Source: Mesostigma viride
Lineage: Eukaryota > Streptophyta > Mesostigmatophyceae > Mesostigmatales > Mesostigmataceae
Direction of reading: 5' to 3'
DNA: 64,000 nucleotides
Assembly: GCA_009746045.1 (NCBI GenBank)
Contig: RPFO01000156.1
Coordinates: 845,653 to 909,652 of the forward strand
How positions within the stretch are numbered: position 1 is the first letter of the stretch; every line of letters begins with the position of its first letter. Both the position numbers and the translations under genes were made by a program. The notes below the pieces were generated by a model. It made no database searches. It was not told where the DNA came from and saw nothing but the letters and a program-made list of their open reading frames with translations. This document shows positions 18,320-48,300 of this stretch, piece after piece.

Positions 18320-21300
18320 CTGCAGATGGTGGTGGCATGTGTATATGTTGTTGTCGGTGGTGGTTTTTGGTGGTGGTAGCGGTGGTGGTGGTGGTGGTGG
18401 TAGTAGTAGTAGTAGTAGTAGTAGTAGTAGTAGTAGTAGTAGTAGTAGTAGTAGTAGTAGTAGTAGTAGTAGTAGTAGTAGTAGTAGTAGTAGTAGTAGT
18501 AGTAGTAATAGTAGTAGTAGTAGTAGTAGTAGTAGTAGTAGTAGTAGTAGTAGTAGCAGTTGCGTAGTAGTAGAAGTAGTAGTAGTAGTAGTAGTAGTAG
18601 GTGGTGGTGGTGGTTGCGGTGGTGGTGGTGGTGGTGGTGGTGGTGGTGGTGGTGGTGGTGGTGGTGGTGGTGGTGGTGGTGGTGGTGGTGGTGGTGGTGG
18701 TGGTGAGACGGAAAAGGAATGGGTGGCAGTGCGCGCGGGGGCAAGGGGGGGAGAGGAAAGAGTTTGTTATTGGTGGGGTGGGCAGGGGGAAAAGTTAGTG
18801 TATAGCCCGGCTGTTCACTTTATTACGTCGAAGAATCACTTCAACTACTTGCGCGGGCTATTCACTTTATTACATCGAAGGTTCACTTCAACTACTTGCG
18901 CGGGCTATTCACTTTATTACGTCCAAGGTTCACTTCAACTACTTGCGCGGGCTATTCACTTTATTACGTCCAAGGTTCACTTCAACTACTTGCGCGGGCT
19001 ATTCACTAACTGGAAAGGTGGGGGTGGGGATCGGGGGGGGGGAGACCGGGGGAAAGGGGAGGGAAGAAAGGGGGTTGAACTCGTGAAACATCGAGGGATG
19101 GGCGAGTGACGTGAACGGATGCTGATGCCTGTGGGAGCATACATGCGCAGGGAGCATGCCCGGGTATGTGTGAAAATATACTAGTACTGTAGGATGAGCT
19201 TATGCTATGTACCAGTACTGTAGGATGAGCTTATGCTATGTACCAGTACTGTAGGATGAGCTTATGCTATATACTAGTACTGTAGGATGAGCTTATGCTA
19301 TATACTAGTACTGTAGGATGAGCTTATGCTATATACTGCAGTATATGCCCAGGCATTCCACACCCATAAAAGAATGCATGCAGCATGCGTACAAAAAATA
19401 TACACACTTTGTGAGAGAATTGCGTGACCACGCACTGTGTTGCCCACGGCCGCACACACTTTCCATCACCCCCCCCCCACCAGTACCTCGCCACCATCTG
19501 GCGAAAAATATAAAAACAAACAAACAAACAAACATAGATTGCACGCACCGTGTTGCCCACGGTGGCACAACGCCGCAAGAACAAGCCGCCCGCAAAGCAC
19601 CGAGGTTGGGGGCACCCGCGGACCTTGTGTCCCGCCTTGGCCACCCCCGCGACCACCGCCGCCGCCACCGCCGGCGTCGGTGCGGGCCCCTTGCGGGCTG
19701 ACACGGGGCTGTTGGCCCCACTACCAGCCCCCATGACCAGCACAGTCAGCCCGGGCCCATGAAGGGGGCTGTCGGGGCCCTTGACCCCCCCGGAGCTGCC
19801 GGCCACGCGCACGCTCATGCTGCGCTTGACGTGGTGGTGTGCCTGCGTGGAGATGGACGGGGGGGGGGCAGTGCTTGGTGTCGAGGCAGCCCAGTCGGAC
19901 CTGCCCACGGAGGGTGTGCCACCGGCCTCCCTGGCAGGGTTGATACTGGCAGAGGACGCGCCACCCTCGGCCCTTGCAAATGGCACGCCAGCATTGCTAT
20001 TACTTTTGCTATCACTATGTATATCATTTTCGTCGATGCCGCCGTCACGCAGCGCGAGCATCATCATCTGGCTGGGGTTCGCACCAAGGCTCGCGCGGCC
20101 GGGGCCCAGGGGCTCGGGCGGCACGGGCGCGGGCAACTGGGCGGTCATGGACCGGCTCAGGTGCTTGTTGGTGAAGGAGAATGGGCGGCCCGTGAAGGAG
20201 GAGGACGCGCGGCCGGCGGGCACCGAGGTGGGCGGCGTCGAGGACATGCTGATGGGTAGGCTGCTGCTGGGCGGGGCGAGGCGGGAGAGGACGAGGCCCC
20301 AGTGGGATGTGGCCCCGAGGGTCTGTGTGTGTGTGTGTGTGTGCGTGTGTGTGTGTGTGTGCGTGTGTGTGTGCGTGTGTGGTGAAGGGGGGAGAAGGAT
20401 AAGGTAAGAGAGACAGCTCTTGCATCCTCGGTGTGTGTGTGTGTGTGTGTGTGTGTGTGTGTGTGTGTGTGTGTGTGATGGTTGAGGGGGGGGGGGCTGG
20501 CGGGGGCTGGAGGATGGGGTAAGATTCGAGAGGATAAGATGACGCAACTACGATACGGATGCTACGAATAGCAGGGTCGGCGACACGGGATGGGGATCAA
20601 AGATTTCCGAGGGATGCACGTTGCCCAAGGTGAACCAGACAATGGCATTCCCCCAAGGGGATGCCGGCAAGGGAATGGCGGGCTTGAAGGAAGAGGCGAG
20701 CGGCTACAAGTCAAGGGTACTTTAATGATGATGTCCCATACTACGATAAACTTGGCTACAATTTTTTTCCCCCTGATCCAATCAAAGTTAGATCTGATGA
20801 TTTGTGGCAATGTGAGAGTCGCTGGAGAGCAGCTTCCATGGAGCCCCATCGGCTGATACAAATGATCCCCTTTCGCTAAATATGCTAAATGTTTCCTAGA
20901 GGAAATTTTCCATTGCACTATGTCAACGGTTGGCTGATACCAATGCTGCCCTTTCACTTTATCAACAGTTGCGCAACAGTTGCGTAATACGAGCGCAGTT
21001 GCGCTGTATTCACTCGTTTCCGTGCAAGTCATACGTGCGCGCTTGTGGCAGGCTGTGCATGTATCCTTGGCCGGGGCGGACCAGGGCACCCAAGCCAACA
21101 CACCATGCTCTTTGGGGCTGTTCTTCAGCTGCCATCCGCCGCAGGTGAACGTTGAAACCTTGTACAGCATAACGCCAGCATGAACAAGGGAAGGCTGCGT
21201 CCCAGCCAAGGAGCCTTGACTACGCGGGCCCCCAGACTATGCGCGCGCAGCGGAGAATAGCATGCGATCAGCAGGCAGGGTTGCAAGTTCCTGACAAGGA

Positions 21301-45300: not shown

Positions 45301-48300
45301 GCGAGCGGGAGAGAGAGAGAGAGAGAGAGAGAGAGAGAGAGAGAGAGAGAGAGAGAGAGAGAGAGAGAGAGAGAGAGAGAGAGAGAGAGAGAGAGAGAGA
45401 GAGAGAGACAGAGACAGAGAGAGAGACAGAGAGGGAGAGAGAGAGAGAGAGAGAGAGAGAGAGAGAGAGAGAGAGAGAGAGAGAGAGAGAGAGAGAGAGA
45501 GAGAGAGAGAGAGAGAGAGAGAGAGAGAGAGGGGGGGAGAGAGAGAGAGAGAGAGAGAGAGAGAGAGAGAGAGAGAGAGAGAGAGAGAGAGAGAGAGGGA
45601 GAGAGAGAGACAGAGAGACACAGAGAGAGACAGAGAGATAGAGAGATAGAGAGATAGAGAGAATAAATAGAAGAATATAGATCAGAACGCATTCCTGAAG
45701 TCCCAAGGTTGTTTCTCTGGTATTGGTGCGGATAAAGAAGAGCCACTAAAGGAGGCGGTGCTGAATACCCCCACCGCAGCAAGGTGCAGTCCGCAACCAT
45801 CAGTCTAAACCCGTGCTGAGGATTTCAGGAATGAGACATCCCCCGCAGGCCAGCCATGGCAGGACCCTAACGTCTGCCTGACCTGCAGGACCCTAAAGCC
45901 TGACCCTAACATCTGATCAAGCCTGCCTTGCCCCTGCATCCGCCCACATGACTGAATAGCCTCGGTGGAAGGGCATGAAACACTGCCGCTGTATTCGCCC
46001 ACATGACTGAATGGCCTAAAGCCTGCCTTGCCCCTGTATCCGCCCACATGACTGAATTGCTTAAAGCCTGCCTTGCCCCTGTATCCGCCCACATGACTGA
46101 ATGGCCTAAAGCCTGCCTTGCCCCTGTATCCGCCCACATGACTGAATTGCCTAAAGCCTGCCTTGCCCCTGTATCTGCCCACATGACTGAATAGCCTCGG
46201 TTGAGCGGAATGAAATGGAGATGACAACCGCGTGTGTCGTGCACACATGGCACACAAATGGCAGTGCAAAAGGGAACATGTTTGGTGCATGCGTGGCGGC
46301 TGAACCGCTGCCCTAAGTAGGTATATGTGGCATGCTTGTGCATATGCGGTGGGGTGGAGATGGCAGGCAAGGTTGAAAAAGGCCGAAGCAGTAAGAGAGA
46401 AGAACATAGGCGGGAAAACGTAGGCGGCGTGATACTGTCACACCACAAAACATAACTATTTGATAGAGCGGGTGTGGAATAGGGCCTTACCGGCACCCTA
46501 GAGAATATGGAGATAAGCAGCCGATCTGCCACCATGCGCACCGCTCGAAACAAAAGTATTTAATAGGTAATAGTAAGGCCGACGAATAGGGCATTACCGC
46601 CACGCTGGAGAATATGGAGATGAGCAGGCGGTCGGCCGTCATAAGCGATGCTGAGCTGGTGAGCGAGCCCTGCCCCCGGATGGCCAGGTCACCGCTCGAG
46701 TGGAGCAGGCTGCCCGCCTGTTTGGGGGGTTTGTGGAATTGGAGGTTGTAAATTTTTTAGGGGGGGGGTGAGGGCGACCACATCCCCAAGCAGATGCACA
46801 AGGCCAGGGAGGAATCACGCATCACCATATCGACAAGCAGGGCAATCATTTTAAAGTTTTTGGAAGAAAGCTGCTCTATTGCCAGACTTGTAGTTCGCCA
46901 AGGTATCACCTGCACATCCTGAGCAATTACAGGCAAATAACTACAGCCGTTCTACACATAGAAACATTTACTTCGTTCAAAACACTAATTGAAGACAGGC
47001 ATAGGAAAGCGTATGGCCAGAAGGTACACACAGTGAGACTCAAAATACCACATGTCGATGAATAACACGCCCCTTCAACACGATAAGCTCCTGGATTGTC
47101 GGTCGCATGGCTCCAGTGGGAGGCCACCATGTGATGCCCGGGGTGTCAGCATGCGGAGTGCAGGGTTTCGGATCGAGGCTGGACCCCGTGATCCATCTCA
47201 TGTCTAAGGTCATGTCTGATTTCATATCTAATTTTATGCGGCATGTCGTGTAGACCTTCACCTCGGCCAGGTTGTCTGTGCATGAACCTGGACAAGCCAC
47301 TGCAGGGGGCCCACATTTCTAGGGCCAAAATAAGTTGTTGTTTTTCCCTTTGACACCCTTACATCGGGTGGCAAAGATTTGTGCAAGACCCGTTACCACT
47401 AGGGCAATGTGAGCTTGTTTATGTGCTGTATGGAATATGCCAGAATTAAAAATAGGAAACACATTAGAGAGAGGGAGTCCATCCAGAACATAGGTGCCCC
47501 CACCTGCAGGTACAGGTTGTCCACGTCCAGGGTGGACCAGGTGGCTCCGTTCGTGTGACTATGGGTGATGACTAGGGACGACTGGTTGAGTGAGACGGTG
47601 TCGGCGGACAGGGTTAGCGAACCGGACACCTGCGTGCCACACGGCAGAAAAAGAAGTAGAAAGAAGAAGGAAGGGATCTTAGAAACCGGACACCAGTGCC
47701 CTGTGAGAAAAGACAATTAAGTAGAAACCGGCGATTTCTTCAAAAGCTGAAACTATAATGAATCTCTTTAGTTGCTAAAAGTAACGTGTTTCCTCAGTTG
47801 CTGAAACTAACGAAAAATTTCTACATACCTTTCTCCTAAAATCCCCACTCCCATGGGAATGTGTGATAAAAAATGACAGCAGGAGTAAGCATTCATTTTG
47901 TTAGGTTCTGAACTGCTTGGTTCAGAACAGGCCCACTACACCACATCTCTCCTGCCCAGAACGCCAGAGTCCGCATCCTTGCCCTGCGACACTGTAGAGA
48001 ATAAGGGGTGCCTGTCAGGGTCTGCCAGGCATCCGCATGACTGGGGTGGGCATGGGGTGATGGATGAGGTGAAAGATTGGAAGAGAAGTGGCTACGGCCC
48101 TCCCTTTAAAAGCATCCCCGACAGCCCCGTGAGCCCCCCACCCCACCCCACCCCTACTGTCAAAAATCTCAACATACATGGATAGCGCCATTTGTCAAGA
48201 TATGAGGCCTCCAATATTATATGACAACAATGATGCTCTTCGCAGCATCAGCAAGCCTGCCTCGCTGATTCCCTCCGCATGCTTCCCTAGCCATCACTGC

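Follow-up and report, generated by a model that had tools for sequence, protein, structure and literature searches.

A tandem duplication across an intron-exon boundary is known from the RdRp gene of potato, where it made a new intron (PMC4974935; the same paper mentions, without detail, an 83-bp tandem duplication inside the first intron). Here we describe events of this type in the streptophyte Mesostigma viride, whose introns, in the gene Mv00660 on the 64-kb stretch of genomic DNA analyzed (hereafter the window) and in other genes, repeatedly hold local, decaying duplicates of the splice junctions that bound them. The likeness to potato lies in a duplication that crosses an existing intron-exon boundary and carries the splice signals along. 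However, the potato event gave a new intron and new exonic sequence, once, whereas in Mesostigma an intron that is already there grows longer beside an unchanged exon, and this recurs at about a quarter of the sampled donors.

In the general tandem-duplication model of intron gain (reviewed in PMC3443670), duplication of an AGGT-containing exon sequence supplies a new intron with its two ends, one from each copy. There too the duplicate splice sites are supplied by tandem duplication, but in Mesostigma it is the end of an exon with the start of the intron (or the end of an intron with the start of the exon) that is copied, and no intron is gained. In Drosophila, tandem duplication of coding sequence has produced novel intron positions (PMC2891723), again a change of gene structure by local duplication near splice sites, but the subject there is new intron positions, and not the growth of existing introns through copied junctions. 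Human paralogues, in which internal tandem repeats alter gene structure and repeats vary between segmentally duplicated genes (PMC2812944), offer another case of intragenic repeats that interact with the exon-intron structure. Introners likewise multiply splice signals in many genes of one genome (PMC9860276), but their sequence is common to many loci, whereas the Mesostigma copies are private to each intron in our sample. Recurrent junction-straddling duplications that lengthen introns are not described in the titles and abstract openings of the open-licence papers surveyed, nor is junction-straddling duplication mentioned in the available portions of the Mesostigma genome paper (PMC6947507) and of a Chlamydomonas comparison (PMC8226300). 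A known type of event, duplication across a junction, here makes existing introns longer, and does so frequently and at numerous junctions.

Junction copies in Mv00660

The gene lies on the minus strand of the window, and all feature coordinates are positions within it.

16609..54328, minus strand: gene Mv00660, 29 coding exons, whose spliced translation is the published protein P0001

Its best protein match, at 100% identity, is P0001 (jgi Mesvir1/5888/Mv00660, 1640 aa). Before the annotation was consulted, 25 exons had been placed by eye, and all their shared residues agreed with P0001, from which the model then took one missed exon, three 3' exons and another donor for exon 13. Once corrected, it has 29 exons and translates letter for letter to the 1640 aa of P0001, so that the count of 30 exons in the earlier note on this DNA has been lowered to 29. 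Because the spliced model and P0001 are identical, the junctions used here are those of the published annotation. That annotation combined ab initio, homology and transcript evidence, and the mean intron in the genome of M. viride NIES-296 is 1142 bp (PMC6947507).

Copies were sought with an alignment anchored at the junction, which required a positive score over at least five bases on each side; the best partner was taken from up to 400 nt inside the intron, and simple repeats with a period of 10 or less were masked. At a score of ≥22, 7 of the 28 donors and 3 of the 28 acceptors of Mv00660 had an inner copy, while order-2 Markov-resampled intron sequence reached 22 at 2.1% of 189 points. The eight junction copies listed in the earlier note were all recovered at this score: 41, 76, 52, 26, 30 and 22 at the donors of introns 8, 9, 11, 15, 16 and 26 (the last numbered 27 in that note, the published exon numbering being followed here), and 66 and 53 at the acceptors of introns 9 and 21. 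The spacing to the nearest copy at these eight junctions ranged from 24 to 113 bp. Further copies were found at the donors of exon 4 (21 bp) and exon 13 (48 bp), the former scoring 31 without masking and being invisible under the simple-repeat mask. The copies are as follows, with repeat arrays as called by Tandem Repeats Finder (TRF).

50477..50564, minus strand: exon 4 donor and its 21-bp tandem copy (score 31, spacing 21; TRF 50512-50564, 2.5 copies)
46443..46642, minus strand: exon 8 donor (46550-46642) and a copy 107 nt into intron 8 (46443-46535; score 41)
44077..45134, minus strand: exon 9 donor within an array of 43.6 copies of a 24-bp unit (TRF; donor counts and open frame below)
43132..43694, minus strand: exon 10 acceptor (43132-43223) and upstream copies at -98, -197, -295, -394, -411 and -524
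41946..42100, minus strand: exon 11 donor and copies at +43 and +86 (scores 52 and 22)
36762..36876, minus strand: 48-bp duplication beginning at the exon 13 donor (score 35; the copy lacks GT)
34378..34530, minus strand: exon 15 donor and copies at +45 and +93 (scores 16 and 26)
33203..33362, minus strand: exon 16 donor and a copy at +90 (score 30)
25118..25710, minus strand: exon 22 acceptor and copies at -107, -191 and -498 (scores 53, 27 and 24)
19429..19569, minus strand: exon 26 donor and a copy at +113 (score 22; 21 exonic bases plus the donor)

At exon 8 the aligned bases comprise 45 exonic and 48 intronic ones. Exon 9 terminates in the first unit of the 24-bp array, which holds 42 GTAGA donor-like sites and over whose whole length the frame of the exon is open. 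The copies of the exon 10 acceptor (the end of intron 9) score, from near to far, 66, 40, 21, 16, 17 and 17, and the two nearest copies of the exon 22 acceptor retain AG. Besides the eight noted junctions, the ten that reach 22 under the mask include the exon 13 donor and the intron 23 acceptor; we regard the match at the latter as doubtful, as it scored 33 but lies 376 nt off and has no AG; that at the intron 6 acceptor was weak (score 15). The copies sit within one existing intron each, and the coding sequence is that of the published protein.

Protein matches of Mv00660 bear the family name DUF8003 or ephrin type-B receptor-like, a plant family, and those listed from outside Mesostigma have 41-46% identity over the searched region. 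The family label PF26010/DUF8003 comes from precomputed labels and from these names; a Pfam scan of P0001 listed Ephrin_rec_like alone, below its cut-off. A paralogue search with the C-terminal 399 residues found no second genomic locus, and Rfam and tRNA scans of the window gave no matches at default thresholds. Intron 12 contains a 3.6-kb run of a 7-base repeat (37498-41115), with two variants, of the GTGTGTT and GTCGTGT types, in alternating blocks.

Other genes and the splice site in use

To extend the sample beyond Mv00660, a genome search for Cpn60/TCP1 chaperonins (PF00118) was made, and nine loci were taken from its 58 matches. Published proteins fixed the junctions exactly in CCT3 (P0121; six introns in the locus) and CCT2 (P0241; seven introns), and the remaining CCT genes were modeled with our own gene finder, trained on Mv00660 and then on CCT genes and anchored on Pfam hits. 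Dropped before counting were the first gene piece of locus L033 and the first intron of its second piece, the introns beyond the third in L034 (L033 and L034 are two copies of one gene), one doubtful intron of L035 and the gaps between its pieces, the short second piece of L036, and, in L037, the predicted introns at either end (its tail enters unrelated sequence). The resulting sample comprises 87 introns in nine genes, with 41 introns placed exactly by published proteins; some tests used earlier sets of 82 introns (shuffle null and position profiles) or 43 introns.

A copy with a score of ≥22 within 400 nt inside the intron was found at 23 of the 87 donors and 8 of the 87 acceptors. By gene, starting with Mv00660, the donor counts were 7/28, 3/7, 3/6, 3/8, 0/8, 2/8, 2/5, 3/9 and 0/8, that is, seven of the nine genes have donor copies; the pattern, described earlier from one gene, is not special to it. 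In the exactly placed subset the figures were 13/41 donors and 4/41 acceptors. When each junction was aligned to the corresponding end of introns from other genes, five per junction, only 2 of 435 donors and 0 of 435 acceptors reached the threshold. With shuffled targets, which began 80 nt away and were hence slightly shorter, none of 80 donors and none of 80 acceptors did, against 23/80 and 7/80 in the real sequence (82-intron set).

All 31 junction copies are direct and local. The alignment, capped at 60 nt per side, spans 0.8 or more of the spacing for 13 of the 23 donor copies and 7 of the 8 acceptor copies. GT is retained in 19/23 donor copies and AG in 4/8 acceptor copies, the latter at spacings of 98, 107, 85 and 103 nt, none of them divisible by three. 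Donor-copy spacings fall 7/8/8 into the three classes modulo 3; in-frame spacing is not preferred.

The published models use the outer donor at all 13 of the exactly placed donors (of 41) that have an inner copy. The main search looked inside introns only, and its copies are inner by design; the reverse search, on the exon side at score 22, matched 3/41 donors and 0/41 acceptors, and in none of the three was there a GT at the aligned place. With the reverse search nearly empty and without GT, the site used in the published models is therefore the exon-proximal one. CCT3, which has 84% identity to its best-matching non-Mesostigma entry (P0122), illustrates this. Our own gene finder picked inner donor copies at two of its introns, adding residues, while the published protein takes the exon-proximal donor at both, and the published model has no inserted residues at the duplicated donors.

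Junctions, intron interiors and the two ends of the intron

The earlier note had suggested that the junction itself is a hot spot for duplication. Pooled over Mv00660, 10/56 junctions (17.9%) had a copy, compared with 24.2% of 784 interior points, a figure weighted towards long arrays, and no junction excess was seen. As a per-intron mean over the 87 introns, interiors were duplicated at 13.6% of points looking downstream and 13.7% looking upstream. Against these values donors stood ca. 1.9-fold higher at threshold 22 (0/3,000 permutations as high), and the enrichment held at 18 (P = 0.0003) and at 26 (1.8-fold, P = 0.0013) but not at 30 (11/87 versus 9.8%, P = 0.18). Acceptors were low relative to interiors, with depletion P values of 0.022, 0.087, 0.038 and 0.025 at thresholds 18, 22, 26 and 30.

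Since the exon half of the junction reference cannot drift freely, junction copies are more readily detected, as a simulation with equal birth rates, units like the observed ones and the exon half of the reference frozen indicates. In it junction copies were 1.51-fold more detectable, giving an expectation of 17.9/87 at either end, with which the 23 donors are compatible (P = 0.11), while the 8 acceptors are too few (P = 0.0036). A mutational hot spot at the donor, due for instance to transcription-linked structure or to breaks where the intron begins, would agree with the enrichment at thresholds 22 and 26 and with a profile whose maximum, about 29-32%, lies at 0 to +40 and which has dropped to ca. 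12% at +240 to +300 (82 introns). However, coverage climbs back to 25% at +400, the excess is gone at threshold 30, and exon constraint alone predicts 17.9 donors. In an intron-only measure on the same 82 introns, the exon-side part of the alignment could extend at most 30 nt and could not leave the intron; duplication at +30 to +80 (17.6-23.0%) then lay within the range at +100 to +400 (10.1-23.7%), with no donor-proximal excess. We therefore judge such a hot spot unlikely as the explanation: at donors it is possible but unproven, with about 1.5-fold accounted for by exon constraint, and acceptors are low.

The two ends of the intron differ in this sample, with 23 donor against 8 acceptor copies among 87 introns (Fisher P = 0.005) and 13/41 against 4/41 in the exactly placed set (P = 0.027). 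The first AG after the branch point tends to be used. In human cells the polymerase is reported to keep hold of the upstream 5' splice site through U1 while the intron is being synthesized (PMC8316553). We propose that the order of transcription may act as a survival filter and thereby explain the asymmetry: after duplication of a donor the correct copy would be transcribed first, and the event would survive more often, while after duplication of an acceptor the wrong copy would come first, and the event would be purged more often.

Duplication was also scored in the C2 flank, which we read as largely intergenic and transposon sequence; there 7.8% of 1,174 points were duplicated. Gene finding on this flank was excluded from all counts; the self-trained finder over-predicted and followed transposons. 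Related predicted open frames, which probably encode a retroelement protein, occur on the minus strand at 14000-15300 and 62400-64000, close to either end of the window, and recur in the C2 flank. Elsewhere in the window, a predicted protein (57192-58748, minus strand) contains several tandem cysteine-rich motifs of the EsV-1-7 type, 39 residues each, and after them a further few hundred residues; its coding repeat has a 117-bp unit (5.6 copies, 97% matches), and PF19114 is the sole Pfam match of a shortened version of it. EsV-1-7 proteins are known from brown algae and large DNA viruses. A 1344-residue open frame (671-4705, plus strand) has an RZ-type zinc finger (PF20173) at its end, as in RNF213/ZNFX1-like proteins.

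Accounts of the junction copies

With moderate confidence we hold that pervasive local duplication filtered by splicing, rather than a proven hot spot at the junction, best accounts for the junction copies. Local direct duplications, with spacings of about 20-175 bp, would arise throughout Mesostigma introns, and one that crosses an exon-intron junction would place a copy of the exon end and of the splice site within the intron. Splicing would go on using the exon-proximal copy (the 5'-most donor or the 3'-most acceptor) while the inner copy drifts; with the exon-proximal site kept in use, the protein would be unchanged while the intron lengthens. Repeated events at one junction would build ladders with the youngest copy nearest to the exon.

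The last step bears on the suggestion of the earlier note that introns expand from their edges inward. An array scan covered 13 of the 56 Mv00660 junctions, chosen by us. Among small arrays with at least two copies at a score of ≥16, the homogenized 24-bp array of exon 9 being excluded, the copy nearest to the exon was the most similar in 3/4, and similarity falls with distance at the acceptors of introns 9 and 21 and at the donor of intron 11. This fits growth of those introns at their edges; at the intron 15 donor the order is reversed and the farther copy is the more similar (16 at +45, 26 at +93). At a laxer cut of 13, applied to introns 4, 6, 24, 26 and 27, a farther weak match scores higher in introns 24 and 26.

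Several other observations weigh, like the reversed order at intron 15, against our account. Two of the nine genes (L032 and L037) have no donor copies, 46 of the 87 introns come from our own gene finder, and eight of the nine genes belong to one family. The use of the exon-proximal site is that of the published models, and a strict tandem origin holds for the 13 donor and 7 acceptor copies mentioned above and is inferred for the rest. With simple repeats unmasked, the counts rise to 27/87 donors and 15/87 acceptors, and the asymmetry is weakened. Identity in the exon half differed in the predicted direction but was not significantly above that in the intron half (0.765 versus 0.704, P = 0.20, n = 23 donor copies); with this difference not significant, the argument from detectability rests on the simulation.

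The arrays might instead be functional, as redundant or alternative splice sites under selection, the foremost case being exon 9 with its 42 in-frame donors 24 nt apart, which would encode a variable 8-residue repeat. The high retention of GT in donor copies, the array that is open throughout and the reading of our own gene finder straight through it fit this idea, but GT retention is favored by the anchored alignment itself, the published model uses the first donor, and spacings have no bias to multiples of three. Furthermore, the variants of the 24-bp array all look non-synonymous by eye and hence give no sign of coding constraint; overall we find selection on the arrays improbable. Only a shade better, and well below a simple hot spot in our estimate, is the chance of a bolder combination in which donors are preferentially duplicated, introns grow conveyor-like from the 5' edge, and splicing occasionally turns to the surviving spare donors, of which exon 9 has up to 42 in frame, yielding exons of variable length. 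Insertion of introners or of another dispersed element at splice sites is very improbable: introners reportedly give rise to introns in other lineages (PMC9860276), but one sequence in many introns was not found within the 87. Only 1 of the 31 junction copies matches another of these introns, over 24 nt and in reverse, and the six intron pairs that share sequence at E ≤ 1e-5 are confined to four introns. Finally, chance matches or wrong junctions would be a concern for the introns predicted by our gene finder, but the exactly placed subset agrees with the whole, and the nulls from Markov-resampled, shuffled and other-gene introns were near zero, which leaves this reading barely credible.

One CCT gene is present twice, as L033 on the large contig C887 and L034 on the 91-kb contig C1641, the second copy having ca. 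3.2 kb extra in one intron; the two are either alleles or a recent segmental duplication. They are 97.9% identical over 4,854 aligned bases, ca. 50 of which are counted twice owing to block overlap. Three of the seven pure indels of at least 4 nt are tandem steps by our rule, three are not, and the remaining one, an 18-mer, repeats its neighbor in tandem but for a shift of one base. No indel between L033 and L034 was found that adds or removes a whole junction copy. These indels hint that tandem steps may still be occurring.

For gene finding the copies call for caution, as inner donor copies can be chosen and add residues, which happened at the two CCT3 introns. The donor/acceptor asymmetry offers a direct test of whether transcription order decides between near-identical splice sites. 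Long introns are often credited to transposons. Local duplication makes up a noticeable part of the introns sampled here, and since selection holds one junction copy still, the junction copies are a lasting record of this process.

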